64,000 nt of DNA from Rhizobium etli 8C-3 (GTDB taxonomy: Bacteria; Pseudomonadota; Alphaproteobacteria; Rhizobiales; Rhizobiaceae), in NCBI RefSeq assembly GCF_001908375.1, contig NZ_CP017244.1, forward strand, positions 620,001-684,000. The letters run 5' to 3'. Every line of letters starts with the position of its first letter. Position 1 is the stretch's first letter. A program made the position numbers and the translations under genes. The notes under the pieces were generated by a model. The model ran no database searches. It saw only the letters and a list, made by a program, of their open reading frames with translations, and was not told the origin of the DNA. Below are positions 15,183 to 59,546 of the stretch, one piece after another.

Positions 15183-16078
15183 TCCGCAACGGCATTGAGA
15201 TCGACGACACGTTTGCGGAGGCATTCGGCATGCGTGCGACCGCAATCATCATCACCGCGCCGAGCCTGAAATGGGCGCGTCAGGCGGCGACGACCATGAC
15301 GGGCTTTGCGACCTCCGTCATAGGCTGTGGCTGCGAGGCGGCGATCGACATCGATATTCCGGCGTCCGCGACGCCGGATGGGCGTCCGGGTTGCCGTGTC
15401 ATGATCTTTGCGATGGGGACGGACGAGCTGCAGAAGCAGTTGAAAACCAGGCTCGGTCAGTGTGTTCTGACCTCCCCCGGCAGCGCCTGTTTTTCCGGGC
15501 TCGAAGGCAGCGCCTCGCTCGATCTCGGATCATCCCTGCGCTATTTCGGCGACGGATGGCAGATCTCCAAGAAGTTCGGCGGCAAGCACTATTGGCGGGT
15601 GCCGGTCATGGACGGCGAATTTCTTTGCGAGGCGAAGACGGGTCTGACGAAAGAGGCAGTTGGCGGCGGAAATCTCTTCCTGCTCGCCGCAGACGGCGAA
15701 AGGGCGCTGGCGGCCGCCGAACGCGCCGTGGCGGCGATCGAAAAGATTCCCGGCGCGATCATGCCGTTCCCCGGCGGCATCGTGCGCTCCGGCTCGAAAA
15801 TCGGCGGCAAATACAAGGGAATGATGGCTTCGACCAATGATGCCTATGCGCCCACACTGCGGGGGGTGACCAAGAGCGCGCTTGGTCCTGGCATCAATGC
15901 AATCCTTGAAATCGTCATCGACGGGCAGACGAGCGAGGCGGTGGCCGCGGCTATGCGGGCCGGGCTGAAGGCCGTCATCAATTTCGGACCGAAGCGCGGC
16001 GCCTTGCGCATCAGCGCGGGAAATTATGGCGGCAAACTCGGCAAGTTCCACTATCATCTAAGGGATCTCCTGCCATGA
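15170..16078 (+). CDS. fhcD: Formylmethanofuran:H4MPT formyltransferase subunit
   Basis: The 302-residue product matches the Ftr/FhcD family, which moves the formyl group from formyl-H4MPT to methylofuran. Recognisable stretches are EIDDTFAEAFGMRATAIIITAP, VIGCGCEAAIDI, CVLTSPGSACFSGL, and MPFPGGIVRSGSKIGGKYKGM. ATG 15170 follows a GGAGG site and overlaps the fhcA end by 13 bases. The stop overlaps fhcC by four bases. The length is close to archaeal Ftr (about 300 residues). Confidence 0.95.
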   Translation: MQELIRNGIEIDDTFAEAFGMRATAIIITAPSLKWARQAATTMTGFATSVIGCGCEAAIDIDIPASATPDGRPGCRVMIFAMGTDELQKQLKTRLGQCVLTSPGSACFSGLEGSASLDLGSSLRYFGDGWQISKKFGGKHYWRVPVMDGEFLCEAKTGLTKEAVGGGNLFLLAADGERALAAAERAVAAIEKIPGAIMPFPGGIVRSGSKIGGKYKGMMASTNDAYAPTLRGVTKSALGPGINAILEIVIDGQTSEAVAAAMRAGLKAVINFGPKRGALRISAGNYGGKLGKFHYHLRDLLP

Positions 16079-16887
16079 AGCCGCTGACCTTCACCCTTCG
16101 CTCCGAACCGGATGAAAGGCTCGACCTATCCGGCTTGACACCCCATAAACTCCACGGCATGCAACCTGCCGACATCGCCAGATTGCCGATCGGAACGAGC
16201 CGGCGTCCCGCCTCGGTCGGCGATGTCTTCAAGGTTGCGGGCAAGGATATCTCGAACATCGTGTTTTCAGGCGGCAGCGCTCGCTTCGACTTCGTCGGAG
16301 CGGAGATGGCGACGGGACAGATCCGCGTCGAGGGCGATGTCGGCGCCCGCGCCGGTCGGCGCATGAGTGGCGGCCTTCTGAACATCGAAGGCAATGCCGG
16401 ATTGCAGGCGGGCTCGGGAATGAAGAACGGGCGCATCGAGATCGGCGGTGATGCAGGCGACGGCCTTGGTGGGCCGATGGCGGGAGAGATCCACGGCATG
16501 GCGGGCGGGCTTGTGATCGTTGGCGGCAGGGCCGGCCATCGCCCCGGCGATAAAATGCGGCGAGGCGTCATCGCGCTTTTGAAAGGATGCGGCGATTATG
16601 CCGGTTTCGGCATGACCGCCGGGACGATCGTTGCGATCGGGCGCGTCGGTCTTTATCCCGGCCATTTGATGAAACGCGGCTCGCTTCTGTTCGACCGGCG
16701 ACCGGCGGCACTTTCGCCGACCTTCATCGATTGCGGCCGCGTGGACATCGTCTTTCCGACCCTGTTTGATCGCTATCTGATGGAAGACAAAATTCTCGAT
16801 CGGCCGCTGCTCGGCAAAAAACCCTTCCGTTTCGGCGGCGACAATGCAGTCTTGGGCAAGGGCGAGATTATGTTTCCGCGAGGTTGA
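16075..16887 (+). CDS. fhcC: Formyltransferase/hydrolase complex subunit C
   Basis: The 270-residue product has the GXGXG beta-helix repeat of FwdC/FhcC, related to the glutamate synthase C-terminal domain. Successive turns read IRVEGDVGARAGRRMSGG, LNIEGNAGLQAGSGMKNG, IEIGGDAGDGLGGPMAGE, and VIVGGRAGHRPGDKMRRG. The subunit is structural and helps hold the A and D active sites together, with the cofactor moving between them. It closes the fhcBADC operon and converges on cbbR 37 bases downstream. Confidence 0.93.
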   Translation: MKPLTFTLRSEPDERLDLSGLTPHKLHGMQPADIARLPIGTSRRPASVGDVFKVAGKDISNIVFSGGSARFDFVGAEMATGQIRVEGDVGARAGRRMSGGLLNIEGNAGLQAGSGMKNGRIEIGGDAGDGLGGPMAGEIHGMAGGLVIVGGRAGHRPGDKMRRGVIALLKGCGDYAGFGMTAGTIVAIGRVGLYPGHLMKRGSLLFDRRPAALSPTFIDCGRVDIVFPTLFDRYLMEDKILDRPLLGKKPFRFGGDNAVLGKGEIMFPRG

Positions 16888-16923
16888 GCCGTGACCACCC
16901 GGTTCGAGATCGGCCGAAGGTCT

Positions 16924-17874
16924 TCAATCGGATTGCTGCAGCATCGGGTAAAGCTTGTCGAAGAGGGGCAGGCATTGGGCTCCCCGCTCCCGCAGGAACA
17001 CCTGAAAGGCACTCATCGCCGGCGAGATCGTTCTGTCCGTTCGCGTTACCGAAAACCATTGCCTGCGGATCGGCATGCCGATGACGTCGAGCGTGACGAG
17101 TTTGCCGAACTCCAGTTCCATGGCGATTGTGTGAGCCGAAATGAAAGCGATTCCGAGACCCGCCATGACGGCCTGCTTGATCGTCTCGTTCGACGACATC
17201 TCGGTTCCCAGTTCATCCAACCTGCCAGGAATTTCGCCGAGGAAGATTTCCAGAGATATGCGCGTGCCCGAACCGGGTTCTCGGACAAGAAAATGTTCCT
17301 TTGCGATTTCCTCTTTGGTGATGTCCCGTTTCCTTGCCAGGGGATGGTCGGGCGGCGCGACCATCACCAGCGGATGGTCACCGAATCCCACCGAGTGCAA
17401 CGGCATGTCCCTGGGCGGACGGCCCATCAGGGCGATGTCGACGTCATGGTTCTTGAGCTTTGTGATGATTTCGGCCCGGTTGCCGATTGCGAGCGAAACG
17501 GCAATGCCGGGATGGCTCTTGCGGAAGGTCGCCATCATGTTTGGCGCGAAGTATTTGGCGGTCGAGACGACACCGAGGGCGAGGGTGCCGGTGCGCACGC
17601 CCTTGATCGCATCGACTTCGTCGTCCAGTTGGCGCAGCCGTTCCTCGATCGACTGGGCGGCATCGATGAAAGCAAGACCCGCCGCCGTTGGTCGAATTCC
17701 GTCATTTGTCCGGTCGAATAGGAGGATGCCCGCATCCTCCTCAATCTGCTTGAGCTGGATGGTAACGGCCGAGGGGGTAAGGCCGAGAGCATTGGCTGCC
17801 CGCACGATCGTTCCGTGCCGTGCTATCTCCTGCGTTGCACGCAGATGTCGAAGCGTGAGGTTCTTCATTGTCAC
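16924..17874 (-). CDS. cbbR: LysR-type regulator of the cbb operon
   Basis: The 316-residue product is a LysR-type regulator. A winged helix-turn-helix lies in the first 60 residues (LRHLRATQEIARHGTIVRAANALGLTPSAVTIQLKQIEEDAG), and a periplasmic-binding-type effector domain follows. Divergent placement before cbbF is the classic cbbR arrangement, and CbbR proteins activate cbb operons in response to metabolites such as PEP, RuBP or NADPH depending on species. The gap to cbbF contains two inverted repeats that are good operator candidates. The start MTMKN at 17874 has an in-frame ATG two codons later (MKN). Confidence 0.93.
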   Translation of the reverse strand: MTMKNLTLRHLRATQEIARHGTIVRAANALGLTPSAVTIQLKQIEEDAGILLFDRTNDGIRPTAAGLAFIDAAQSIEERLRQLDDEVDAIKGVRTGTLALGVVSTAKYFAPNMMATFRKSHPGIAVSLAIGNRAEIITKLKNHDVDIALMGRPPRDMPLHSVGFGDHPLVMVAPPDHPLARKRDITKEEIAKEHFLVREPGSGTRISLEIFLGEIPGRLDELGTEMSSNETIKQAVMAGLGIAFISAHTIAMELEFGKLVTLDVIGMPIRRQWFSVTRTDRTISPAMSAFQVFLRERGAQCLPLFDKLYPMLQQSD

Positions 17875-46574: not shown

Positions 46575-46764
46575 ACAGATTTTTGTGATGTCAGCTTGAT
46601 TCGTCGGACAATTGATTGACGCTTTCGCAAGGTTTTGCGTAAATGCGGTGGAATCGCTTTGCTGGGAGGACATCGGCAAGGCGAGATTGCGGGCATCCAT
46701 CCCTTCGACGACATCTGAGGGGCAATTGGGGCAAGCCTGCAGGTTTTGGGAGGTCAGCAGGCTG

Positions 46765-47505
46765 GTGGCGGTTCTCGAACTCACCAACATTTCCAAACAT
46801 TTCGGTGCCATCCAGGCAGTCAACGACGTTTCGCTTTCGCTTCAGGCGGGGCAGGTCGTCGGTCTCATGGGCGATAACGGCGCTGGAAAATCGACACTGG
46901 TCAAGATGATTGCCGGCAACTTCCGGCCGAGCGAGGGCACCATACGCCTCGATGGCGCGGAAATCGTCATGCACCGGCCGGTGGAGGCGCGCCAGCACGG
47001 CATCGAGATCGTTCACCAGGATCTGGCGCTCTGCAATAATCTCACGGCAGCGGCGAACGTGTTCCTCGGGCGCGAGCTGCGGCGCGGCATCGGTCCACTG
47101 AAAGTCCTGGACTACAAGACCATGTATAGGCGTGCCGGCGAAATTTTCAGGGAGCTGAAGTCGGAGACGCGTCCCCGGGACCTCGTAAGGCAGATGTCAG
47201 GCGGCCAGCGGCAGGCGGTGGCGATTGCGCGCACGATGCTTTCGGAGGCAAAGATCGTGCTGATGGACGAGCCGACTGCGGCAATTTCCGTTCGCCAGGT
47301 GGCGGAGGTCCTCAATCTGATCCGCCAACTGCGAGATCGCGGCATTGCCGTTGTCCTGATCAGCCATCGCATGCCGGACGTCTTTACGGTTGCCGACCGC
47401 GTCATTGTCTTGCGGCGAGGCAGAAAAGTTGCCGACAAGCCGATTGAGGCAAGTTCGCCAGAGGAAGTCACAGGGCTTATCACCGGCGCGATCGAACAGG
47501 TGTGA
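46765..47505 (+). CDS. Sugar ABC transporter ATPase, single-domain CUT2 type
   Basis: The 246-residue product carries one nucleotide-binding domain: Walker A GDNGAGKST, the signature MSGGQRQAVA, Walker B IVLMDEPTAA and the switch His in LISHRM. CUT2 ATPases are often double (about 500 residues), but single-domain forms such as the rhizobial fructose transporter FrcA exist. GTG 46765 (VAVLELTNIS) is the probable start, with GGAGG eleven bases upstream. The longer upstream frame is not protein-like. A permease follows 35 bases later. Confidence 0.9.
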   Translation: MAVLELTNISKHFGAIQAVNDVSLSLQAGQVVGLMGDNGAGKSTLVKMIAGNFRPSEGTIRLDGAEIVMHRPVEARQHGIEIVHQDLALCNNLTAAANVFLGRELRRGIGPLKVLDYKTMYRRAGEIFRELKSETRPRDLVRQMSGGQRQAVAIARTMLSEAKIVLMDEPTAAISVRQVAEVLNLIRQLRDRGIAVVLISHRMPDVFTVADRVIVLRRGRKVADKPIEASSPEEVTGLITGAIEQV

Positions 47506-47540
47506 ACGCGCTGCTTGGATAGTGGAAAAAATGAAGGTCG

Positions 47541-48542
47541 ATGATGGCTGTTACTCTTGACCAGACAATTGCACAGAAGCAGCGGAACTGGATTGCATCA
47601 GTCGTGGGCGGGCAGACCTTCTGGGTCCTGATCGCAGTCATCCTCGCCTGTCTTTTCCTGTCTGCGGCAACCGACTCCTTCGCCACGGCGAAGAACCTCT
47701 ACAACATCACCCGCAACGTCACTTTCGTTGCGATCATTGCGCTCGGCATGACGCTGGTCATCATCACCGGCGGAATCGACCTGTCCGTTGGGTCGGTGCT
47801 CTGCCTTTGCAGTATGGTCCTGGCGGTGGTGATGCATGCCGGCTACAGCATCGAAGTCGGTATTGCCGCGTCGATCGGCACCGCCCTAATAATCGGGGCC
47901 TTCAACGGGCTTTTGATCGCCTATCTCGACTTCCCGCCGTTCGTCGTGACACTCGGCATGCTGTCGATCGCGCGCAGTCTTGCAATGGTCGCATCTAACA
48001 ATACCGTGGTCTTCCAATTCGGACCGGATCACGACACGCTCCTGGCACTCGGCGGCGGCGCGTGGTTTCTCGGCATCGCCAACCCGGTGCTCTACATGAT
48101 CATTCTGGCCCTGCTGACCGGTTTCGTGCTGCGCTGGACGAGGTTCGGGCGCTATGTTTTTGCGATCGGCGGCAATGAGCATGCCGCAACGTTGACCGGC
48201 GTTCCCGTACGCAGGATCAAGGTGGCAGTTTATATGATATCCGCCCTATCGGCGGGGATTGCCGGCATTGTTCAAACCGGCTGGCTGGGCGCCGTCACCA
48301 CCAATATAGGTGCCGGAATGGAGCTTCAGGTCATCGCCGCCGCCGTCATTGGTGGCGCCAATCTGGCAGGCGGCGTCGGTACCGCTCTCGGCGCGTTGGT
48401 CGGAGCTGCGCTGATCGAAGTGATCCGCAACAGTCTCGGCCTGCTCGGCATCAACGCTTTCTGGCAGGGGACCTTCATTGGGGGCGCCATCGTGCTTGCC
48501 GTGCTTTTCGACAGGATCCGCAACTTCCGGCAAAGCGAATAA
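47541..48542 (+). CDS. Sugar ABC transporter permease (RbsC family)
   Basis: The 333-residue membrane protein has the RbsC family motifs: ALGMTLVIITGGIDLSVGSVL, LIAYLDFPPFVVTLGMLSIARSLA, TRFGRYVFAIGGNEHAATLTGVPVRRIKVAVY and MELQVIAAAVIGGANLAGGVGT. It forms the membrane channel for the sugar importer with the upstream ATPase and the binding protein at 44493. ATG 47541 is followed at once by a second ATG. Confidence 0.93.
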   Translation: MMAVTLDQTIAQKQRNWIASVVGGQTFWVLIAVILACLFLSAATDSFATAKNLYNITRNVTFVAIIALGMTLVIITGGIDLSVGSVLCLCSMVLAVVMHAGYSIEVGIAASIGTALIIGAFNGLLIAYLDFPPFVVTLGMLSIARSLAMVASNNTVVFQFGPDHDTLLALGGGAWFLGIANPVLYMIILALLTGFVLRWTRFGRYVFAIGGNEHAATLTGVPVRRIKVAVYMISALSAGIAGIVQTGWLGAVTTNIGAGMELQVIAAAVIGGANLAGGVGTALGALVGAALIEVIRNSLGLLGINAFWQGTFIGGAIVLAVLFDRIRNFRQSE

Positions 48543-49401: not shown

Positions 49402-49719
49402 ACTCAGACGCGGTACAAGCATCACTCTGTGTTCATCTGAGGTGATGCAGCTCTGCTGGCAAGGGATGGAGCCCGGCAAGTGCCTGTTGTGGTGTATGAA
49501 ACGTCAATCCTGTTTTCGATACGTCGCATCGAAAAACAGTTTCATATCGGTGCTCGGTTGATCCGTTTTCTCTTCGACTTTCGCATCGACGTGAAAGCAG
49601 ATTCGGCTCTTCCGGCTTGTGCTGCACTGTGACCAGCCATATTTTAGAGGAATGCCGGGCGCCGCAGGAAAGCGGTGACGCTTTCGCGTGCGTGGAGCTT
49701 GCTCATCAGGAACGAAAGC
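49402..49719. other. Intergenic, no supported gene
   Basis: A divergent gap of about 318 bases between the phosphatase and the HtrA-like gene. No open frame or clear hairpin is convincing. It should hold both promoters. Confidence 0.4.
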
Positions 49720-50625
49720 ATGAACATCGACAGGATTTTGCGGTCCGTTGTGGCCGTCCGTTCTTCAATTCCGGAAGATGCCTTCACGGCGATGACCCTC
49801 GGTACCCAAAGAGAGGGAAGCGGCGTGGTGATCGGTGAAAACGGGCTGGTGGTCACAATCGGCTATCTGATCACCGAGGCCGAGGAAGTGTGGCTGACGC
49901 GCAATGATGGCTATGTCGTTCCTGCGCATGCCCTTGCCTATGATCAGGAAACCGGCTTCGGCCTGGTGCAGGCGCTCGGGCCGCTTTACGTTCCCGCATT
50001 AGATCTTGGGGATGCAATTGCAGCGAAGGTCGGCGATCCGGTTATGCTTGCTGACGGCATCGGTCAGTTTGTGCAGGCTGCGATTGTCGCCAAGCAGGAA
50101 TTCGCCGGTTACTGGGAATATCTGCTCGAAGAGGCGATTTTCATCGCGCCGGCTCACCCTTCCTGGGGAGGTGCGGCACTCATCGGCTCCGACGGCAAAC
50201 TTCTCGGCATTGGCTCGCTGCGCCTGCAAATGAGCCAAAGGGGACAGGCCGCCGACATCAACATGGTTGTACCGATCAACCTGCTGCCACCCATTCTTGA
50301 TGATCTGCTCACGCGCGGCCAAGTGAATAAGCCGCCGCGTCCCTGGCTCGGGGCCTTTTCTGCCGAAAGCAATGGCGACGTGGTGGTCATGAGCGTGGCT
50401 GAAGGGGGCCCGGCGGCTCAAGCGGGCTTGCGTGAGGGAGATATCATCTCGGAGATAAGGGATGGAGAGGTCGCCGGTCTTGCCGACTTTTACCGCAAGC
50501 TATGGAGGAGCGGTCCCGCCGGTGTGGAAATCCCAATGAGGATATTGCGCGATGGTCGTGAAGCTTGGCTGCGTGTCAAGTCGGCCGACCGCAACAGCTT
50601 TCTTCGAAAGCCGCAGCTGCAGTAA
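49720..50625 (+). CDS. HtrA/DegP-like protein with degenerate catalytic triad plus PDZ domain
   Basis: The 301-residue product has the trypsin-like half followed by a PDZ domain (PWLGAFSAESNGDVVVMSVAEGGPAAQAGLREGDIISEI). The catalytic positions are lost. The His motif (usually TNNHVV) reads VVTIGYLITEAEEV, the Asp motif reads YDQETGFGLVQAL, and the Ser motif (usually GNSGGP) reads AHPSWGGAALI. There is no signal peptide. It is therefore a probable inactive protease, perhaps a binding or scaffold protein. ATG 49720 (MNIDRILRSVVAV) is favoured over an upstream 15-codon extension. Confidence 0.82.
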   Translation: MNIDRILRSVVAVRSSIPEDAFTAMTLGTQREGSGVVIGENGLVVTIGYLITEAEEVWLTRNDGYVVPAHALAYDQETGFGLVQALGPLYVPALDLGDAIAAKVGDPVMLADGIGQFVQAAIVAKQEFAGYWEYLLEEAIFIAPAHPSWGGAALIGSDGKLLGIGSLRLQMSQRGQAADINMVVPINLLPPILDDLLTRGQVNKPPRPWLGAFSAESNGDVVVMSVAEGGPAAQAGLREGDIISEIRDGEVAGLADFYRKLWRSGPAGVEIPMRILRDGREAWLRVKSADRNSFLRKPQLQ

Positions 50626-50704: not shown

Positions 50705-50730
50705 GTAAATCGGTTTACTAAAGCGGTTTA
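50705..50730. promoter_or_regulatory. Tandem LacI-type operators before the LacI gene
   Basis: GTAAA-TCGG-TTTAC (50705-50718) is a perfect 14-bp dyad, and TAAA-GCGG-TTTA (50719-50730) is a second one directly next to it. Both have the central CG-containing layout of LacI-family operators. They end six bases before the ATG of the LacI gene, so they point to autoregulation and to control of the genes that follow. Confidence 0.75.
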
Positions 50731-50736
50731 CAAGCG

Positions 50737-51795
50737 ATGGGAAACGAGCGTGTCACCAGTCTGAAGGATGTCGCCGGTGCTGCCGGCGTTTCCGTGACGA
50801 CAGTCTCGCGGCTGCTGAACGGCTCGCTCGAGCTTCCCCACGAGACGAAGAAGAGGATCGAGGATGCGATCCGTGATCTCAATTATCAGCCCAATCCGCA
50901 TGCCCGGCGCCTAAGCCGCGGGCGCTCGGATACGATCGGTCTCGTGGTGCCCGACATCGCCAATCCGTTCTTCGCAACCCTTGTGGCGGCGGTGGAGGAG
51001 GAGGCGGATCGCCGCGGGCTTGCCGTCTCGCTGTATGCGACGCTGAACCGCTCCGGTCGCGAGGTCGCCTATCTTCAGCTGATAGAACGCAACCACGTCG
51101 ATGGATTGATCTTCGTTACAAATCATCCCGATGACGGGCAACTGGGGGCGCTCATCAACCGCACCGGCAAGGTCGTCGTCGTCGACGAAGACGTTCCGGA
51201 CGCGCTGGCACCGAAGCTCTTCTGCGACAATGACAGGGGTGGCTATCTTGCGGGAACGCATCTTGCGCAAATGGGGCATCGCCGCGTCCTATTCATCGGT
51301 GGACCCGAACGGATGATCAGCGCACAGCGACGGTTCCAGGGGCTGGAAAGGGCAATGCACGAACTGTGGGGTGCTGATGCTGTGTTGCTCAACTATAAGG
51401 GCGAATACACCGTCGCCTTCGGGCGCGAAGCTGCCAAGCGCTTCATAGCCGATGGCATGCCTGCGAGCGCGATCTTCGCGAGTTCGGATGAAATCGCCAT
51501 CGGCCTTATTGAAGTCTTGCGCAGCCAAGGCATTTCGATTCCTCAGGACGTCTCGATCGTTGGTTTCGACGACGTCGGGCCGCTGCATCTTTTTGCGCCG
51601 CCGGTAACGGCCGTCCGCCAGCCCGTTCGGCAGATCGGCCAGCGCGCGCTGTCGTTGCTTCTTGAAACAAACTGGCAGGAGCGTGCCCCATGCGCTGTGG
51701 AAGAGCTCCTGCCGGTCGAGATCGTCGTGCGGAGTTCCGTTGCGCCGCCGGCGAATCCGAAAATCGCAATGGGCAAAAAAACAACCAGAGGATGA
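50737..51795 (+). CDS. LacI-family transcriptional regulator
   Basis: The 352-residue product has an N-terminal HTH (SLKDVAGAAGVSVTTVSRLLNG, then PHETKKRIEDAIRDLNYQPN) and a sugar-binding regulatory domain (IGLVVPDIANPFFATLVAAVEEEA, VSIVGFDDVG). It sits at the head of the ABC/PTE/BtpA cluster. Tandem operators before its own start suggest it represses the operon until a sugar-like inducer binds. The C-terminal tail ends in KKTTRG close to the next gene (4-base gap). Confidence 0.93.
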   Translation: MGNERVTSLKDVAGAAGVSVTTVSRLLNGSLELPHETKKRIEDAIRDLNYQPNPHARRLSRGRSDTIGLVVPDIANPFFATLVAAVEEEADRRGLAVSLYATLNRSGREVAYLQLIERNHVDGLIFVTNHPDDGQLGALINRTGKVVVVDEDVPDALAPKLFCDNDRGGYLAGTHLAQMGHRRVLFIGGPERMISAQRRFQGLERAMHELWGADAVLLNYKGEYTVAFGREAAKRFIADGMPASAIFASSDEIAIGLIEVLRSQGISIPQDVSIVGFDDVGPLHLFAPPVTAVRQPVRQIGQRALSLLLETNWQERAPCAVEELLPVEIVVRSSVAPPANPKIAMGKKTTRG

Positions 51796-51799
51796 GAAC

Positions 51800-52756
51800 A
51801 TGACTTGCACTATCAAACGCAGAACATTGACAGCCGCTCTCGGCTTCACCGCATTGGCCACCGCCTCGCTCGCAGGCTTCGGCGCCAGTGCACAGGAAAA
51901 GACCTTTGCGCTGGTACAGATCAACCAGCAGGCATTGTTTTTCAACCAGATGAACGAGGGCGCCCAGAAGGCGGCCGATGCAGCAGGCGTAAAGCTGGTG
52001 ATCTTCAATGCCAACAACGATCCGGCTGCCCAAAACAGTGCAATCGAAACCTACATTCAGCAAAAAGTCGCCGGTCTTGCAGTCGTTGCCATCGATGTCA
52101 ACGGCATCATGCCGGCCGTCAAGCAGGCGGCAGATGCCGGTATCCCTGTGGTCGCGATCGATGCAATCCTGCCTGAAGGGCCCCAAAAGGCCCAGATCGG
52201 CGTCGACAACGCCAAGGCCGGCGCTGATATGGGCAGGTTCTTTCTCGACTATGTCAAGGCGAACATGGACGGAAAGGCAAAGGTCGGTGTCGTCGGTGCG
52301 CTGAATTCGTTCATCCAGAACGTCCGCCAGCAGGGCTTTGAAAAGACGCTCGAGGGTGTCTCCGGCATCGAGAAGGCCGGGGTCGTCGATGGTCAGAACA
52401 TTCAGGACAATGCGCTTGCCGCCGCCGAGAACCTGATCACCGGCAATCCGGATATGACGGCCGTCTATGCGACCGGCGAGCCGGCGCTGATGGGAGCGAT
52501 CGCCGCTGTCGAAAGCCAGGGTAAGCAGGATGCCATAAAGGTGTTCGGTTGGGACCTCACTGCCCAGGCGATCGCCGGCATCGACGCCGGCTACGTCGCA
52601 GCCGTGATACAGCAGGATCCAGCCGCCATGGGTGCTGCGGCCGTCGACGCGCTGAAGAAGGTCTCGGATGGCGGTTCAGTCGACAAGAACATCGCAGTTC
52701 CCGTGACGATCGTCACCAAGGAGAATGTGGAACCATACAGGGCCGTTTTCAAATGA
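51800..52756 (+). CDS. Sugar ABC transporter substrate-binding protein (RbsB type)
   Basis: The 318-residue product has an export signal ending SASAQ-like GFGASAQEK and the RbsB layout: FALVQINQQALFFNQMNEGAQKAADAAG, LVIFNANNDPAAQNSAIETYIQQKVAGLAVVAID, GVDNAKAGADMG and VFGWDLTAQAIAGIDAGYVAAVIQQDP. It captures the substrate of the adjacent CUT2 importer. The family binds pentoses, ribosides and related small polyols, so no exact ligand can be named. It lies in a coupled run with the ATPase (ATGA overlap). Confidence 0.92.
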   Translation: MTCTIKRRTLTAALGFTALATASLAGFGASAQEKTFALVQINQQALFFNQMNEGAQKAADAAGVKLVIFNANNDPAAQNSAIETYIQQKVAGLAVVAIDVNGIMPAVKQAADAGIPVVAIDAILPEGPQKAQIGVDNAKAGADMGRFFLDYVKANMDGKAKVGVVGALNSFIQNVRQQGFEKTLEGVSGIEKAGVVDGQNIQDNALAAAENLITGNPDMTAVYATGEPALMGAIAAVESQGKQDAIKVFGWDLTAQAIAGIDAGYVAAVIQQDPAAMGAAAVDALKKVSDGGSVDKNIAVPVTIVTKENVEPYRAVFK

Positions 52757-53565
52757 TCGGGCACGGACAGCACCCAAGCGCTGTCTCCGGAACCGGGGGA
52801 GCCCTGCTTCCCCGGCAATCCGGGGTGGCGGCAATAAGGCCGCGCATATCGCTCCGCGATATCCGCAAGACCTTCGGCTCGCACCAGGCATTGCGAGGCG
52901 TCGACCTCGACCTTTTCCCCGGGGAATGCCTCGGCCTTGTAGGCGACAACGCGGCAGGCAAGTCAACGCTTACTAAAATTATCTCCGGCACCTATATTCC
53001 CGACGCTGGGACGATCTCGATCGATGGAGAAGAGGTGCGGTTTTCCGGTCCGGCCGAGGCGCGCTCGCGCAATATAGAGATGGTCTTCCAGGACCTGAGC
53101 CTCTGCGATCATATCGATGTGGTCGGCAATCTCTTTCTTGGCCGCGAAATCACCAAGGGACCTTTCCTCGATCGTGCGACCATGCTTGCCGAGGCGCGTA
53201 AGATGCTCGATGCGCTGGAAATTCGCATCCCGCGGCTGACTGCAAAGGTCGAAAAGCTTTCCGGTGGCCAGCGCCAGGCCATCGCAATTGCTCGGGCCGC
53301 CTCCTTCAGTCCCAAGGTTCTGATCATGGACGAGCCGACATCGGCACTTGCCGTTGCCGAGGTGGAAGCCGTGCTCTCGCTGATCAACCGCGTCAAGGCG
53401 AAGGGCGTTTGCGTCGTCCTTATCACCCATCGCCTGCAGGACCTCTTCCGGGTCTGCGACAGGATTGCCGTCATGTACGAAGGCACCAAAGTCGCCGAGC
53501 GCGAGATCGGCAAGACCGATCTGGAGGATCTCGTGAAGCTCATCGTCGGAGGAGAGCGGCCGTGA
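52753..53565 (+). CDS. Sugar ABC transporter ATPase, single-domain CUT2 type
   Basis: The 270-residue product has one nucleotide-binding domain: Walker A GDNAAGKST, signature LSGGQRQAIA, Walker B VLIMDEPTSAL and the switch His in LITHRL. The first 30 residues are a Gly/Ser/Ala-rich extension not seen in short FrcA-like ATPases. It is coupled to the binding-protein gene and to the permease, whose GTG start overlaps its stop. Confidence 0.92.
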   Translation: MIGHGQHPSAVSGTGGALLPRQSGVAAIRPRISLRDIRKTFGSHQALRGVDLDLFPGECLGLVGDNAAGKSTLTKIISGTYIPDAGTISIDGEEVRFSGPAEARSRNIEMVFQDLSLCDHIDVVGNLFLGREITKGPFLDRATMLAEARKMLDALEIRIPRLTAKVEKLSGGQRQAIAIARAASFSPKVLIMDEPTSALAVAEVEAVLSLINRVKAKGVCVVLITHRLQDLFRVCDRIAVMYEGTKVAEREIGKTDLEDLVKLIVGGERP

Positions 53566-54566
53566 CCGTCTATACCGAACGTGCCAAGGGCTCGCCGCTT
53601 GCCGACTTCTTTGCCGAGCATGCGCAGGTCCTGTCGATCGCCTTTTTCTTCCTCGCCTGCGTGGCCTTCTTTGCAGTCACGACCGATACATTCATGACCC
53701 TTGGAAATCTTCTGAATGTCGTGCGCCAGGCAGCACCGATTCTTGTTGTGGCCGTCGCGATGACCCTGGTTATCGTCACCGGCGGTATCGATCTGTCGGT
53801 CGGGTCGCAGGTGGCGCTCGTCAACGCCGTGGCGGCGATCATTCTTGCCATGGGGTACCCCTGGCCGATCGTTGTCGTGGGGATGCTGGCCTTCGGAGCG
53901 CTGCTGGGCATGGCGCAGGGCTGGTTCATTGCCTATCAGGGTATACCGGCCTTCATCGTCACGCTGGCGGGACTTTCGATCCTGCGCGGCCTGGCGCTTT
54001 ATCTGACGCAAGGCTATTCGATCCCGATCAGGGACGTGCCGGGCTTCTTCTGGCTGGGACGCGGCCAGTTTATCGGCTTGCCGGTCCCTGCGTTGATCGC
54101 CATTTTCGTCGCCGCCATCGGCTATGTCGTGATCTCCTCGACCAAATATGGACGGCAGGTCGTGGCCGTCGGCTCCAACATGGAAGCGGCACGCCGCGTC
54201 GGCATGCCGGCGCAATGGATCATTGCCTCGGTCTATCTCGTTTCCGGCGTGGCCTCGGCGCTGGCCGGGCTGTTGATCGCGGCGCGTCTTGGCTCCGGCT
54301 CGTCAAACGCAGCCGTCGGTTTCGAACTGCAGGTCGTCGCGGCCGTGGTTCTCGGCGGCACGTCGCTGATGGGTGGCCGCGGCACGATCCTCGGCACGGT
54401 GCTCGGAACGCTGACCATCGCGGTAATCGGCAATGGGCTCATCCTCATGCACGTCTCACCGTTCTTCACCCAGATCGTGACTGGTGCCATCATCCTCCTG
54501 GCGATCTGGCTCAATACCCGCATCTTCACCACCAGTTTTCGTTTCGGCGGCAAGAAGAAGGGCTGA
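53562..54566 (+). CDS. Sugar ABC transporter permease (RbsC family)
   Basis: The 334-residue membrane protein has RbsC motifs: AVAMTLVIVTGGIDLSVGSQVALVN, IAYQGIPAFIVTLAGLSILRGLA, SSTKYGRQVVAVGSNMEAARRVG and ELQVVAAVVLGGTSLMGGRGT. GTG 53562 follows GGAGGAGA and overlaps the ATPase stop. It completes the importer of the LacI-controlled cluster. Confidence 0.93.
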   Translation: MTVYTERAKGSPLADFFAEHAQVLSIAFFFLACVAFFAVTTDTFMTLGNLLNVVRQAAPILVVAVAMTLVIVTGGIDLSVGSQVALVNAVAAIILAMGYPWPIVVVGMLAFGALLGMAQGWFIAYQGIPAFIVTLAGLSILRGLALYLTQGYSIPIRDVPGFFWLGRGQFIGLPVPALIAIFVAAIGYVVISSTKYGRQVVAVGSNMEAARRVGMPAQWIIASVYLVSGVASALAGLLIAARLGSGSSNAAVGFELQVVAAVVLGGTSLMGGRGTILGTVLGTLTIAVIGNGLILMHVSPFFTQIVTGAIILLAIWLNTRIFTTSFRFGGKKKG

Positions 54567-54569
54567 GTG

Positions 54570-55637
54570 ATGGCAGGCGAGCTTTCCGAAGGCCATGTCC
54601 GATCCGGCAAGGTCATGACCGTTGCCGGCCCGGTCCGGGCTGACGCACTGGGCGTTACGCTGATGCACGAGCACGTCCTCAACGACTGCAGTTGCTGGTG
54701 GCATCCGCCAAAGACGCCGGAGCGGCAATATCTTGCCGAAGGGTTCGTTTGCATGGAGATTCTCGGTGAGCTGCGCCAGGACCCGTTCGTCAACAAGCAC
54801 AACATAGCGCTGGACGACGAGCCGCTGGCGATCGCCGAACTTGAGGATTTCGTGAAGGAAGGCGGCAGGACGGTCGTCGAGCCGACGTGTCAGGGCATCG
54901 GCCGCCGCCCCCTGGCTCTGCGGCGCATCGCCAAGGCAACGGGACTCAATATCGTGATGGGTGCGGGCTATTACCTTGCCTCGTCGCATCCGGCCAAGGT
55001 TGCTGGCATGAGTGCTGCAGAGATTGCCGACGAGATCGTCTGCGAGGCTCTTGAGGGTGCTCAAGGCACGGATGTGAAGATCGGTCTGATCGGCGAGATT
55101 GGCGTCTCTTCCGACTTCACCGCGCAGGAGGAAAAGTCGCTACGCGGTGCAACCCAAGCCCACCGCCGCACAGGGTTGCCGCTGATGGTCCATCTGCCCG
55201 GCTGGTGCCGGCTCGGCCACAAGGTGCTCGACATCGTGGCCGAGGAGGGAGGCGATCTGCGCCACACCGTGCTCTGCCACATGAATCCCTCGCATGACGA
55301 TCTCGGCTATCAGGGCGAGATCGCTTCGCGCGGTGCGTTTATCGAATACGACATGATCGGCATGGATTTCTTCTATGCCGATCAGCAGGTGCAATGCCCG
55401 AGCGACGAGGAGGCTGCACGCGCCATCGTCAAGCTCGTCGAGATGGGACACGCCGGGCGTATCCTGCTGTCGCATGACGTATTCCTGAAGATGATGCTGA
55501 CGAAGTACGGCGGCAACGGCTATGCCTACGTGCTCAGGCATTTCCTCCCGCGCCTCAAACGCCACGGCCTCAATGACCGGGTCATCGGCCAAATGATGCG
55601 CGACAATCCGCGGTCGGTCTTCCAGGCTTGTGCCTGA
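54570..55637 (+). CDS. Phosphotriesterase-family metal hydrolase (PHP-like)
   Basis: The 355-residue product is an amidohydrolase of the phosphotriesterase family: TLMHEHVLND with His-x-His, LIGEIGVS with a Glu bridging residue at the place of the carbamylated Lys, then MVHLPGWC, HMNPSHDD and ILLSHDV with the final Asp. The Glu instead of Lys is shared with E. coli PHP. Known family members act on sugar lactones, lactone phosphates and organophosphates, so a sugar-lactone hydrolase is plausible (inferred). GTG 54567 abuts the permease stop; ATG 54570 is favoured. Confidence 0.88.
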   Translation: MAGELSEGHVRSGKVMTVAGPVRADALGVTLMHEHVLNDCSCWWHPPKTPERQYLAEGFVCMEILGELRQDPFVNKHNIALDDEPLAIAELEDFVKEGGRTVVEPTCQGIGRRPLALRRIAKATGLNIVMGAGYYLASSHPAKVAGMSAAEIADEIVCEALEGAQGTDVKIGLIGEIGVSSDFTAQEEKSLRGATQAHRRTGLPLMVHLPGWCRLGHKVLDIVAEEGGDLRHTVLCHMNPSHDDLGYQGEIASRGAFIEYDMIGMDFFYADQQVQCPSDEEAARAIVKLVEMGHAGRILLSHDVFLKMMLTKYGGNGYAYVLRHFLPRLKRHGLNDRVIGQMMRDNPRSVFQACA

Positions 55638-55663
55638 CACCATCAAAGAAACGGTAAGGAACA

Positions 55664-56434
55664 ATGACAAAGAAAGTACTCCTCGTCGGTGAAAGCTGGA
55701 TCAGTTCGGCCACCCACTACAAGGGCTTCGACCAGTTCGGCAGCGTAACTTTCCATCTAGGCGCCGAACCGCTGGTCAAGGTGCTTCAGGGCAGCGAATT
55801 CGATCTGACCTACATGCCCGCGCACGAGGCGGTGGAAAAATTTCCCTTCGGCATGGCCGGGCTTGACGCCTATGACGCGGTCATCCTGTCAGACATCGGC
55901 GCGAACTCGCTGCTCCTGCCGCCAGCGGTCTGGCTGCACTCGCAGACGGTGCCGAACCGGCTGAAACTCATCAAGGCCTGGGTCGAGAAGGGGGGCGGGC
56001 TGTTGATGGTCGGCGGCTACTTCTCCTTTCAGGGGATCGACGGCAAGGCGCGCTGGCGCCGTACGCCAGTCGAAGATGTCTTGCCCGTCACCTGCCTTGC
56101 CAATGACGACCGCGTTGAAATGCCGGAAGGATCGACCGCCATTGTCCTGAGGCCGGAACATCCGGTCATGGCCGGGCTTGACGGCGAATGGCCGCTGCTT
56201 CTCGGCGTCAATGAAGTGGAAGCGCGCGACCGTGCCGATATCGAAGTGCTTGCCCGCCTGCCGGAAGATCAGGGGAGCCATCCGTTGCTGGTTCTGGGGT
56301 CGCACGGCAAGGGCCGAACGGCCGCCTGGACCTCTGATATCGGTCCCCATTGGCTGTCGCCGGCTTTTTGCGAGTGGGAAGGGTATGGACGCTTGTGGAC
56401 CAATCTCCTTGGCTGGTTGACCGAGGCGCGCTGA
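55664..56434 (+). CDS. GATase1-like protein (DUF1355/PF07090 type)
   Basis: The 256-residue product has the start KVLLVGESWISSATHYKGFDQF, AVILSDIGANSLLLP and a GLLMVGGYFSFQGIDGKARW segment typical of the glutamine-amidotransferase-like PF07090 family. The class I glutaminase nucleophile Cys is not visible at the usual turn, where GGYFSF stands. So it is unlikely to be an ordinary glutaminase. Members often sit in carbohydrate operons without known function. It follows the PTE gene by 26 bases and ends three bases before the stop of the antisense kinase gene. Confidence 0.78.
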   Translation: MTKKVLLVGESWISSATHYKGFDQFGSVTFHLGAEPLVKVLQGSEFDLTYMPAHEAVEKFPFGMAGLDAYDAVILSDIGANSLLLPPAVWLHSQTVPNRLKLIKAWVEKGGGLLMVGGYFSFQGIDGKARWRRTPVEDVLPVTCLANDDRVEMPEGSTAIVLRPEHPVMAGLDGEWPLLLGVNEVEARDRADIEVLARLPEDQGSHPLLVLGSHGKGRTAAWTSDIGPHWLSPAFCEWEGYGRLWTNLLGWLTEAR

Positions 56435-56437
56435 AGC

Positions 56438-57334
56438 TCAGGCGGCGAGAATGGCACGAAGTTCGCCATTGGTGGGAAACGCAGATCGGGTGCCCCGCCG
56501 GCTGACAGTTAAGGCAGCAGCTGCGGTCGCGTGGCCTATGGCGCGGGCGTCAAGCGGCACGCCCCGCAGCGCACAAGAGGCAAGTGCCGTGCCCATGAAG
56601 GTGTCGCCGGCGCCCGTGGTATCGATAGCGATGGCGGGGGCTGCCGGGATCTCAAGGGTGCCTGCCCGGCTTGCGAGCATTGCGCCTTCGGCCCCGAGTG
56701 TCAGGACAGCATATTTGACCCCCGCAGAGATCAGGGCCGAGGCGGCAGCTTGGCCGCCGGTTCCAGTTAAGCTCTCGGCTTCACCTTTATTCACAAAGGC
56801 AATGTCGATGAGCGGCCAGAGATCGGCGAAAAAGCGACGAAGGGGTGAGGGGTTGAATGCGGTGACCAGCTGTCGGCGCCTGGCTTCTTCAAGAATGCCG
56901 CGGGTAACGTCGTCGGAAAGGTTGCCCTGCAGGACAACGAGATCGCCAGCGGCAGTTTCGGCAAGCGGCCGAATGGCATCCGAAATGGTCAGCGAACCGG
57001 CAGAATCGGAGGTCGTGACGATGGCATTCTCGCCATCGGGGGTGGTGAAGATGATGGAGAAATCGCTCGCCTTTCCGGCGAGCCGGACCAGTCGCGCATC
57101 GACCGGCTCTTCGGCCAACTGGCTGCGAATGATCTCAGCGCGAAAATCATCGCCGACGGCTGCAACAAGGATGGAGGCAAGACCGGCACGGCCCATCACC
57201 ACGGCCTGGTTTGCGCCTTTGCCGCCAAGATCACGGGTTTGCTGGCGGCCGAGGATCGAAGCGCCTGCCTCAGGCATGGCCGATACGGAAATAGTTTCGT
57301 CCACTGTGACGTTGCCGATGACATAAGCACGCAT
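56438..57334 (-). CDS. PfkB-family carbohydrate/nucleoside kinase, antisense to the operon
   Basis: The 298-residue product is a ribokinase-type PfkB kinase: YVIGNVTVDETISV, RDLGGKGANQAVVMG and DTTGAGDTFMGTALASC with the anion-hole GAGD and catalytic Asp. It would phosphorylate a sugar or nucleoside of this pathway. Unlike every neighbour it lies on the minus strand, between two plus-strand genes. Its ATG is only 24 bases from the BtpA start, and its stop is three bases from the GATase1-like stop. The leader on the minus strand therefore must run inside the BtpA gene or be very short. Confidence 0.9.
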   Translation of the reverse strand: MRAYVIGNVTVDETISVSAMPEAGASILGRQQTRDLGGKGANQAVVMGRAGLASILVAAVGDDFRAEIIRSQLAEEPVDARLVRLAGKASDFSIIFTTPDGENAIVTTSDSAGSLTISDAIRPLAETAAGDLVVLQGNLSDDVTRGILEEARRRQLVTAFNPSPLRRFFADLWPLIDIAFVNKGEAESLTGTGGQAAASALISAGVKYAVLTLGAEGAMLASRAGTLEIPAAPAIAIDTTGAGDTFMGTALASCALRGVPLDARAIGHATAAAALTVSRRGTRSAFPTNGELRAILAA

Positions 57335-57340
57335 GACTGG

Positions 57341-57350
57341 CTTTCGAAAG
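57341..57350. promoter_or_regulatory. 10-bp palindrome between the PfkB and BtpA starts
   Basis: CTTTCGAAAG is a perfect palindrome in the 24-base gap between the divergent start codons. AAAGGGA, the BtpA ribosome site, overlaps its 3' end. It could be a short regulator site or simply a ribosome-site coincidence on both strands. Confidence 0.4.
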
Positions 57351-57358
57351 GGAAACAG

Positions 57359-58201
57359 ATGCAGGAAATATCCGACAAGACCTCAAGCGCCATACGGGAA
57401 ATATTCGGGACTGACAAGGCGCTGATCGGCATGATCCATTGCCCCGCCTTTCCCGGCGCCCCGCGTTACCACGGCAAAGAGATGAACGCCATCTATGAAG
57501 CCTGCCTTCGCGACGCCGAGGCACTGATAGAGGGTGGTATGCACGGCCTGATTATCGAAAATCATGGCGACATCCCGTTCTCGAAACCGGAGGATATCGG
57601 CCCGGAGACCGCGGCTTTCATGTCGGTTGTCACCGATCGCATCGCACGCGCAGTTGGCGTCCCGATCGGGATCAACGTCCTTGCGAATGCGCCGATCCCA
57701 TCATTCGCCATCGCCATGGCCGGCGGCGCGAAGTTCATCCGGGTCAACCAGTGGGCCAACGCCTATGTAGCGAATGAGGGCTTCATGGAGGGCCGTGCGG
57801 CGCAGGCGATGCGCTACCGGTCGATGTTGAGAGCCGAGCACATCAAGGTTTTCGCCGACAGCCACGTCAAGCATGGCGCACACGCCATCACCGCCGACCG
57901 CACGATCGAGGAACTGACCCGCGACCTTGCTTTCTTCGACGCCGATGCCGTGATCGCCACGGGACAGCGCACCGGTGACACGGCGAGCATCGATGAAATT
58001 GAAGCAATCGGCGCAGCGACCCACCTGCCCTTGCTGGTCGGTTCCGGCGTCAGCAAGGACAATATCGTCGAAATCCTGAAGCGCACCAACGGCGTCATCG
58101 TCGCCTCCTCGCTGAAGCACGGCGGACTGTGGTGGAACCCGGTCGACGTCGAGCGCGTGAAGGCCTTCGTTGCAGCCGCCGGACCGGCTTTGAAGGGATG
58201 A
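57359..58201 (+). CDS. BtpA/SgcQ-family TIM-barrel protein
   Basis: The 280-residue product matches the BtpA/SgcQ family: ALIGMIHCPAFPGAPRY, LIEGGMHGLIIENHGDIPFSK, AVGVPIGINVLANAPIPSFAIA, FIRVNQWANAYVANEGFMEG and PLLVGSGVSKDNIVEILKRTNGVIVASSLK. The second-to-last stretch is like a phosphate-binding TIM-barrel end. Some relatives are annotated as nucleosidases or linked to photosystem assembly; none fits by biology here. The true start is ATG 57359 after AAAGGGA. The gene ends overlapping the TenA-like gene region. Confidence 0.85.
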   Translation: MQEISDKTSSAIREIFGTDKALIGMIHCPAFPGAPRYHGKEMNAIYEACLRDAEALIEGGMHGLIIENHGDIPFSKPEDIGPETAAFMSVVTDRIARAVGVPIGINVLANAPIPSFAIAMAGGAKFIRVNQWANAYVANEGFMEGRAAQAMRYRSMLRAEHIKVFADSHVKHGAHAITADRTIEELTRDLAFFDADAVIATGQRTGDTASIDEIEAIGAATHLPLLVGSGVSKDNIVEILKRTNGVIVASSLKHGGLWWNPVDVERVKAFVAAAGPALKG

Positions 58202-58206
58202 ATGAT

Positions 58207-58851
58207 ATGCGGCAGAGCTTGTCGGACCAGATCATCCGGGAAAACCGGTCCGTCTTCGAGGCGATGGTCGGTCATCGATTTGTCGAGGACATCAAGGCCG
58301 GTCGCCTGTCGAAGGAAGTGTTCGACAGGTACCTCGTTTATGAGGGTGCCTTTGTCGAAACAGCCATCTCCATCTTCGCCCTGGCTACGGCCAGGGCAGA
58401 GACCATTGCGCAGAAGCGATGGCTGATCGATGTGCTTCACGTGCTCGCCAATCAGCAGCTTGCCTATTTCGAGAAGACCTTCGCCGCACGCGGGATCGAT
58501 CCCGCGGCCTTCGATGTGGATCGGCCGGAGGTGGCGAACTTCTGCAACGGCATGCTGGAGATTGCAAGATCTGGAAGCTTCCACGACACGATCGCCGCCA
58601 TGTTTGCTGCTGAATGGATGTATTGGACCTGGTCAAGTGAGGCGGCCGAATTCCGGATCGACGATCCATTGCTCAAGGAATGGGTGGACCTCCACGCGCA
58701 TGAGGGTTTTGCCGCCCAGGCGCGCTGGCTTAAGGCGGAACTCGACCTTGCGGCCGATCGCCTCGATCGCGCCGAGCGCTCGCGGCTCAGCAGCGTCTTC
58801 GGCCGGGTCCAGCAGCTGGAGATCGATTTTCACGACGCTGCCTATCGATGA
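58207..58851 (+). CDS. TenA-family protein lacking the catalytic Cys (TenA_E-like)
   Basis: The 214-residue all-helical product fits TenA/thiaminase II: FVEDIKAGRLSKEVFDRYLVYEGAFVE, FEKTFAARG, NFCNGMLEIARSGSFHDTIAAMFAAEWMYWTW and a C-terminal LEIDFHDAAY with the conserved Glu. In TenA_C the active-site Cys stands in LLPCxWxY, whereas here it is MFAAEWMY, so the Cys is missing and the protein is TenA_E-like. TenA_E proteins elsewhere salvage thiamin pyrimidines. Its place in a sugar operon argues for another N-glycoside or amide substrate. AAGGG is nine bases before ATG 58207; ATG 58198 is the alternative. Confidence 0.82.
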   Translation: MRQSLSDQIIRENRSVFEAMVGHRFVEDIKAGRLSKEVFDRYLVYEGAFVETAISIFALATARAETIAQKRWLIDVLHVLANQQLAYFEKTFAARGIDPAAFDVDRPEVANFCNGMLEIARSGSFHDTIAAMFAAEWMYWTWSSEAAEFRIDDPLLKEWVDLHAHEGFAAQARWLKAELDLAADRLDRAERSRLSSVFGRVQQLEIDFHDAAYR

Positions 58852-59081
58852 TGCCCACGACAAGGCGGCTGCCAGTTTCTTCGCACGGCACAGGCTCGAT
58901 GGCATTGCCGCAATCGGGGTATGTCGAGGCGCTGACTGCCAATGGCTACGGACGATCCTCAAGGTGAAGCTGCCAGAAGCCATCGGACCGGGAACAATAC
59001 CGCTGCCTGCAGGTTGATCTTGCTTCAACACAAGACCGCAGAGGTTGACGCTTGAGGCAGCAAGATGAATGGAGAAGCGCC
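58852..59081. other. Intergenic between TenA-like and PEBP genes
   Basis: The 230-base gap has no supported gene. A plus-strand frame reading GVCRGADCQWLRTILKVKLPEAIGPG has no start near a ribosome site. A GGAGAAGC site begins the next gene. Confidence 0.35.
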
Positions 59082-59546
59082 ATGGCACTGACCCTGATGA
59101 GCCCGGCATTTACACAGGACAATCCCATTCCCAAGAAATATGCGCGCTCCGGCGAAAATCTGCTTCCGCCTCTCAAATGGGGCGGGGCTCCGCAAGGGAC
59201 GAGAAGCTTTGCCTTGATCGTCGAAGACCCGGACGCGCCACATGGCACCTTCCGCCATTGCGGCATTGCCAATATCCCTTCCGATTGGGACGCTCTGGCC
59301 GAAAGCGCTGATACCGCACCGCAAAACGCGCCACGCTTTTATGCCAATGATTTCGGAAACGTCCGCTATGATGGTCCGCAGCCGCCACGGGGCGACCAGG
59401 CGCATCACTACGTTTTTCGCCTTGCCGCGCTCGACGTCCCGAGTCTTTCGGTTCCCGGCGAGGCCGGTATCGCTACTATGTGGAAGGAAGCAAGGAAACA
59501 TATGCTCGCCGAGGCAACCATTACCGGCACATATCAGACCTCGTAG
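59082..59546 (+). CDS. YbhB/YbcL family PEBP-like protein
   Basis: The 154-residue product has the PEBP pattern: ENLLPPLKWGGAPQGTRSFALIVEDPDAPHGTFRHCGIANIPSD with the DPDAP motif, and DQAHHYVFRLAALD. Bacterial YbhB-type proteins are cytoplasmic ligand-binding proteins whose role is unknown; some affect kinase signalling or lipid handling. ATG 59082 follows GGAGAAGC. It is a single gene next to other small stress-type genes. Confidence 0.9.
   Translation: MALTLMSPAFTQDNPIPKKYARSGENLLPPLKWGGAPQGTRSFALIVEDPDAPHGTFRHCGIANIPSDWDALAESADTAPQNAPRFYANDFGNVRYDGPQPPRGDQAHHYVFRLAALDVPSLSVPGEAGIATMWKEARKHMLAEATITGTYQTS

Follow-up and report, generated by a model that had tools for sequence, protein, structure and literature searches.

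The closest described relative of the system treated here is a partial set of genes already in print for Salmonella, comprising a PfkB kinase, a glutamine amidotransferase-like protein, a different type of transporter, and a phosphotriesterase. According to the June 2026 publication, the kinase STM3547 (RikA) has ribose kinase activity, the annotation of its gene includes an N-terminal DeoR-type domain, and rikA and its neighbours (a predicted glutamine amidotransferase, a DMT transporter, and a phosphotriesterase) form a possible pathway for a carbon source that is unknown (PMC13432705). The subject of the present analysis is a nine-gene run in a 64,000-nucleotide stretch of Rhizobium etli 8C-3 (contig NZ_CP017244.1, positions 620,001 to 684,000; hereafter the window), whose genome comprises 7.3 Mb on 4 contigs. 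The run encodes a LacI-family regulator, a three-gene ATP-binding cassette (ABC) importer, and five enzymes belonging to the phosphotriesterase, GATase1_like, PfkB, BtpA/SgcQ, and TenA families, and it is a real, widely conserved catabolic module that lacks an assigned substrate. A sequence-only reading had proposed it as a candidate undescribed catabolic pathway, a view borne out by the conservation of the set outside close relatives and by a search of an open-access library that returned no pathway or substrate for the gene set. The module is no new kind of system; it combines orphan families in such a way that they can be tested together. Its gene content, protein families, metal-ligand residues, operators, wide co-conservation, and recurrent M20 amidase partner were all computed.

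All nine reading frames lie at the positions given earlier, with families confirmed by Pfam matches. The LacI-family regulator (50737..51795, + strand; PF00356 and Peripla_BP_3) opens the run and is followed on the + strand by a CUT2/RbsB-type periplasmic substrate-binding protein (SBP; 51800..52756; PF13407 (Peripla_BP_4); 5hsg, E 1.7e-118), a 270-residue importer ATPase with one ABC_tran domain (52753..53565; PF00005), a BPD_transp_2 permease (53562..54566; PF02653), a phosphotriesterase-family metallohydrolase (PTE; 54570..55637; PF02126; 3K2G, E 1.1e-169; ligand residues present), and a GATase1_like protein (GAT; 55664..56434; PF07090, E 5.9e-126; relatives 3soz and 2gk3). The PfkB/ribokinase-like sugar kinase (56438..57334; PF00294; 3i3y, E 5.3e-74) is encoded on the − strand, and the run ends on the + strand with a BtpA/SgcQ-family TIM barrel (57359..58201; PF03437; TIGR00259 above cut-off; model with a predicted local distance difference test score of 84) and a TenA-like protein of the Cys-less TenA_E type (58207..58851; PF03070 (TENA_THI-4)). 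By coordinates, the gaps are 4 nucleotides between LacI and SBP, 0–3 between permease and PTE (two possible starts), 26 between PTE and GAT, and 5 between BtpA and TenA, and the ATPase gene overlaps both its SBP and permease neighbours by 4 nucleotides. The inverted pfkB, convergent with GAT (3 nucleotides) and divergent from BtpA (24 nucleotides between start codons), means that the run is not a single unbroken transcript. With so little room at either end, the pfkB promoter would lie in those 24 nucleotides or inside btpA.

The tandem operators placed upstream of LacI were recovered by motif scan as two unstranded operator-like sites, TAAATCGGTTTA at 50706..50717 and TAAAGCGGTTTA, 13 bp from the first, at 50719..50730. 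In 74 of 80 related loci, a TAAANCGGTTTA-like site occurs in the 170 bp upstream of LacI, vs 41 of 4000 random 170-bp stretches, and LacI is presumably autoregulated. Riboswitch control was dropped because no Rfam family, the thiamin pyrophosphate (TPP) riboswitch included, matches the window at gathering threshold. A sigma-70 promoter scan, uninformative for a rhizobium, gave 0 sites vs 2.0 expected in shuffles.

A scan of genome contigs with the BtpA protein yielded at least 536 confirmed places, of which the best 80 loci (78–95% BtpA identity; type A) were kept and scored for gene presence by tblastn; having been picked by BtpA similarity, these loci show linkage rather than frequency. LacI, the three importer genes, PTE, GAT, PfkB, and BtpA are present in 79 of the 80, and 70 carry all nine genes, TenA included. 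Eight of the ten incomplete loci are without TenA, and the other two hold GAT (L079) or TenA (L081) in two pieces; these split genes were scored as missing, and the TenA of L081 enters the lower-threshold TenA/M20 count given below. The closest named relatives among the matches listed are R. mongolense by BtpA (95%) and R. gallicum by PTE (95.8%). The position of PfkB varies: some loci have it on the opposite strand between GAT and BtpA, like the window, and others in the forward direction following TenA, like R. leguminosarum 3841. The cluster is patchy, since a close BtpA (>530 bits) occurs in 3 of 24 other genomes of the same genus.

An M20 amidase is the sole further neighbour family found in more than 15 of the 80 loci; clustering places it in 38, at a median of 16 nucleotides after the cluster and always in the same direction. 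By tblastn, a carbamoylase-type M20 amidase lies in or near 39 of the 80 loci, 31 with TenA and eight without. A quick tree built from four concatenated proteins groups the eight M20-only loci in one clade, in which M20 comes directly after BtpA, in the usual place of TenA. All 80 loci carry at least one of TenA and M20, a distribution that suggests C–N bond hydrolysis chemistry. Strict replacement of one by the other was dropped because of the 31 loci with both genes, among them L070, whose M20 gene is near BtpA but not adjoining. The window lacks the M20 amidase, which was thus out of view for the sequence-only reading, and its genome has two 33–40% identical paralogues on another contig.

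Conservation also reaches outside close relatives, the point on which the sequence-only reading depended: its core recurs in a second type of cluster and in Pantoea. In type B (R. rhododendri, Aureimonas, and ten further genomes), a cupin-type regulator accompanies the same importer and PTE-GAT-PfkB-BtpA; an M20 amidase of the hydantoinase/carbamoylase type is present in 11 of 12, and TenA is matched in 0 of 12. Type C, represented by Pantoea sp. At-9b (L097) and by L117, L119, and L120 from other classes of the phylum, contains BtpA, PfkB, SBP, LacI, ATPase, permease, PTE, GAT, and an ArgE/DapE-type M20 gene, together with TenA in three of the four loci (L119 is without a TenA match). One locus, L116, has neither a TenA nor an M20 match. 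The solved Klebsiella proteins 5hsg and 3i3y are 82–89% identical to type C binding proteins and 57–71% identical to type C kinases, respectively.

Among 398 genomes sampled evenly across the phylum, a close PTE (>390 bits) is present in 10, all of which have GAT beside PTE; BtpA exceeds its cut-off in 9 of these 10 vs 19 of the 398 overall. One of the ten splits the set between two loci, L118 (SBP-ATPase-permease-PTE-GAT) and L139 (LacI-SBP-ATPase-permease-TenA-BtpA-PfkB; only 48% of tree columns filled), and two genomes in all carry the set as separate modules with an importer copy apiece. L070 holds both halves in one locus and groups with type B, apparently since its best matches to PTE and GAT come from a B-like half. 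We read PTE-GAT and PfkB-BtpA-TenA as two modules that act on a single imported compound or on its close relatives.

We consider it most likely, at somewhat less than even confidence, that the run is a catabolic module under LacI control for importing and degrading a pentose-type, probably ribosyl-like, sugar that is N-joined to a small amide-bearing aglycone; from the computed features we infer the substrate, the reactions, and the order of the steps. In this scheme, (i) the importer would take up the intact conjugate, (ii) PfkB would phosphorylate the sugar, (iii) BtpA, whose TIM barrel is of the phosphate-binding type, would break or rearrange the bond between phosphosugar and aglycone, (iv) PTE, TenA, and, where present, the M20 enzyme would hydrolyze C–N bonds of the aglycone, and (v) the phosphosugar would enter pentose phosphate metabolism. 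The riboside nature of the substrate, the cleaving role of BtpA, and hydrolysis by TenA are suppositions of the scheme, and for GAT our guess is a step paired with PTE, because the two travel together even without BtpA.

The window BtpA belongs to the BtpA/SgcQ subfamily (TIGR00259, 228.4 bits; cut-off 153.4) and falls under the cut-off of the photosystem I biogenesis model NF045918 (200.5 vs 400 bits); to our knowledge, no role has been assigned to BtpA/SgcQ proteins outside photosystem I biogenesis. A sugar-phosphorylating system adjoins BtpA in 20 of 20 surveyed places, while a kinase occurs in 1 of 20 control stretches (a PfkB match in L150; L163 has M20-type matches), and paralogues of BtpA adjoin gamma-glutamyltranspeptidase or M42 peptidases. 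Fold comparison with VIA-align returned many TIM barrels with nearly equal Z, including a likeness to phosphate-binding barrels, so no specific relative is claimed. The kinase-then-BtpA step proposed earlier thus draws independent support from the pairing of BtpA with sugar-phosphorylating systems and, weakly, from the TIM-barrel likeness, while BtpA as the cleaver is still conjectural. A broader generalization, which we regard as possible and rather doubtful, is that BtpA/SgcQ proteins are deglycases or phosphoglycosidases of widespread pathways for phosphorylated sugar-nitrogen conjugates, fed by kinases or a phosphotransferase system (PTS) and often joined by an amide or peptide hydrolase, and that the operon in the window belongs among these pathways and may operate in legume nodules.

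The same gene neighbourhoods bear on an unlikely alternative of the Amadori or opine type, in which PfkB would phosphorylate an imported 1-amino-1-deoxy-pentulose or other sugar-amino acid conjugate, BtpA would deglycate it like an FrlB-type SIS protein, and PTE, TenA, and M20 would free the amino part. The gamma-glutamyltranspeptidase and M42 genes beside BtpA paralogues are in keeping with this proposal, as is an Agrobacterium Ti plasmid locus (L108, 9004-16584) in which genes for hydantoinase/oxoprolinase A and B, a SIS protein, and a fructoselysine 6-kinase are found close to PF07090. However, none of the nine genes encodes a SIS deglycase, and the kinase is much closer to the ribokinase model TIGR02152 (182.8 bits, under its cut-off of 299.65) than to the fructoselysine 6-kinase model (40.6 bits).

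PTE clears the PF02126 cut-off (231 vs 22.4 bits), and its expected metal ligands H33, H35, E176, H208, H237, and D303 are at least 97% conserved among 96 sequences and kept across all cluster types. It scores under the equivalog cut-offs for Php (154.6 of 486 bits), phospho-furanose lactonase (58.7 of 630), and OPH (49.2 of 500). Its earlier designation as a PHP-like phosphotriesterase calls for correction, since PTE resembles the Rhodobacter sphaeroides protein 3K2G and a PTER chain more closely than Php. That chain, 9efa, is among its three best solved matches (E 7.1e-62), and its metal ligands align. The PTER study describes the enzyme as an amidase, an N-acetyltaurine hydrolase, with 3K2G as the top structural match of mouse PTER and with Arg204, Arg233, and His300 named from docking as near the substrate (PMC11374699). 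On a provisional PTER numbering, these residues correspond to Gly211/Trp212, Pro240, and Phe305 in the window PTE, and PTER-like N-acetyltaurine hydrolysis was rejected because all three are mismatched. From its sequence, PTE may equally well be an amidase as a lactonase.

A further alternative is a lactone or ester route, in which PTE would hydrolyze a sugar lactone or phospho-lactone during degradation of an oxidized pentose derivative, with TenA and M20 peripheral. Several characterized PTE-family members are lactonases, but the nine genes include no sugar dehydrogenase, M20 is the sole other family in more than 15 of 80 loci, and the phospho-furanose lactonase score (58.7) is far from its cut-off (630). 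Moreover, PTER, the closest characterized relative that we know of, is described as an amidase (PMC11374699). We judge the lactone route quite improbable.

The companion of PTE lacks the nucleophile-elbow Cys, as had been noticed; GGYFSF stands at the place where class I glutamine amidotransferases have it. C144 is conserved within the clusters and is Met in 3soz and 2gk3, while E10, D23, D77, D149, R150, H229, and W230 are kept both here and in those two structures, a residue pattern that speaks for an active enzyme other than a glutaminase. The R. leguminosarum homologue (257 residues, 28.3 kDa) fits pRL90221 (28.31 kDa) by size and description, a protein listed as reduced in the bacteroids that gmcA and gpxA mutants form in pea nodules (PMC7105596, PMC7900000). 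If the match is right, GAT is at least made in nodules, and the substrate may occur there.

Accessory ribose use, with a divergent ribose importer and ribokinase and the other genes as bystanders, appears very unlikely. The RbsB- and ribokinase-like families favour it, as does the phosphorylation of ribose by RikA (PMC13432705), whereas SBP (106.2 of 337 bits, RbsB ribose-binding model NF007936) and the kinase (182.8 of 299.65) both fall under ribose equivalog cut-offs, and PTE-GAT and BtpA are left unexplained. The catalytic Asp of the GAGD motif, D244, is at least 97% conserved among 98 kinases. Asn14 and Glu143 of RbsK, its ribose contacts, align to T10 and N138/G137 and are thus replaced in the window PfkB, although a RikA-like kinase keeps them; the window PfkB also has QGN where RbsK and the RikA-like kinase have QLE. 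The natural substrate of PfkB may therefore differ from free ribose.

TenA has A134-A135-E136 at the site of the active-site Cys. E46, E136, and E205 are at least 97% conserved among 76 sequences, and E136 aligns with the Glu of 1z72 and 1rtw, placing the protein in the TenA_E group, in which Glu replaces Cys and aminopyrimidine derivatives are hydrolyzed. A diiron oxygenase was rejected, the conserved residues lacking, as judged by eye, the Glu/His pattern of haem-oxygenase-like diiron oxygenases. Salvage of a thiamin breakdown product or aminopyrimidine with TenA as the key enzyme is highly improbable: the aminopyrimidine-hydrolyzing activity of TenA_E-type proteins and the conserved Glu136 and Glu205 suit it, but TenA is unmatched in 8 of the 80 loci of type A and in all 12 of type B, scores 56 bits vs a cut-off of 130 for the thiaminase II model TIGR04306, and is accompanied neither by an Rfam match at threshold in the window, TPP riboswitch included, nor, M20 aside, by any neighbour in more than 15 of 80 loci, so thiamin genes are not regularly linked.

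The reading as an N-joined sugar conjugate meets difficulties of its own. We know of no substrate, product, or phenotype for the five enzymes of the set. The 31 loci with both TenA and M20 show that the two are not plain substitutes, and L115, one of the ten genomes with a close PTE, has GAT while BtpA and PfkB are unmatched in the stretch. In the BtpA survey, the loci are partly interrelated, the controls were arbitrary stretches rather than other sugar operons, so that the nearness of a kinase partly reflects sugar-operon context, and 8 of 19 loci have no M20-, M42-, gamma-glutamyltranspeptidase-, or TenA-type match, so that an amide step beside BtpA is not universal. Phosphate-binding TIM barrels are common, and the fold by itself points to no reaction. 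Finally, RikA works on free ribose (PMC13432705), and if the window kinase did likewise, phosphorylation before cleavage would be needless.

The set unites BtpA, PF07090, and Cys-less TenA proteins, families for which no settled catabolic role is known to us, with an ambiguous PTE and PfkB, and one substrate found would frame all five enzymes. Because the set is conserved, includes an importer, and has an evident repressor-operator layout, the SBP ligands and the LacI inducer can be screened directly. New here are the M20 link, the pairing of BtpA with sugar-phosphorylating systems, and the split modules in two genomes.

Around the run, the window encodes a further ABC ATPase and CUT2-type permease just upstream (46612-48542), a trypsin/PDZ (DegP-like) protein directly 5′ of the operator region (49675-50625), and a phosphatidylethanolamine-binding-protein (YbhB-like) gene 3′ of the cluster (59052-59546); the conserved-neighbour search found no such YbhB-like neighbour in more than 15 of 80 relatives. 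Parts of the set occur elsewhere. In L042, a second cluster (12921-17766) lies 3′ of the first, with similar ones in L036, L049, and L058 (from ~12900); that of L042 opens with a single 399-residue protein (PF00356 and PF00294) in which a PfkB kinase is joined to a LacI-type DNA-binding domain, and a PF07090 protein (68–70% identical to the window GAT), an ABC ATPase, and two permease-type matches come next in clusters of this type. The fusion resembles RikA with its annotated DeoR-type domain (PMC13432705). On Klebsiella and Shinella plasmids (L104, 7078-10668; L105, 5074-10665), PF07090 adjoins a nitrilase-family gene in loci that also encode an ABC importer and an M24-family protein; the Shinella locus has a carbamoylase-type M20 gene as well. 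A Rhodococcus plasmid locus (L106, 7147-12901) has PF07090, LacI, PfkB, and phosphoribosyl pyrophosphate synthase genes near those for a luciferase-like monooxygenase, a flavin reductase, and a nicotinate phosphoribosyltransferase, and it resembles pyridine-degradation clusters. PTE-family genes (~38% identical to that of the window) lie close to insertion sequences on plasmids of E. coli and Klebsiella (L099, 9022-10056; L172, 6025-7056), with neither GAT nor kinase among their annotated neighbours.

Compared with described systems, the run shares with Salmonella STM3547-STM3550 the grouping of PfkB, PF07090 GAT-like, and PTE genes, but has a CUT2 ABC importer in place of the DMT transporter, and it contains BtpA and TenA, which go unnamed in the passages describing the rikA cluster. 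A RikA-like kinase from an E. coli plasmid (L107) carries an additional N-terminal region together with the RbsK-like Asn and Glu that the window PfkB lacks. In the E. coli sgc locus, sgcQ encodes the BtpA protein, and we know of no substrate for that locus. In a comparable locus that looks enterobacterial (L138), BtpA is accompanied by a sugar PTS instead of a kinase, an M42 peptidase, and an RPE-family epimerase, with PTE, GAT, and TenA unmatched in the stretch. RbsABC-RbsK and the window have in common a LacI regulator, a CUT2 importer, and a ribokinase-like kinase, to which the window adds PTE, GAT, BtpA, and TenA, along with a single-domain ATPase, changed sugar-contact residues, and scores under the ribose cut-offs. 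With the fructoselysine (Frl) and opine operons, the run would share the logic of import, phosphorylation by PfkB, and sugar-nitrogen cleavage, although it is without a SIS deglycase, the role of which BtpA would need to take.

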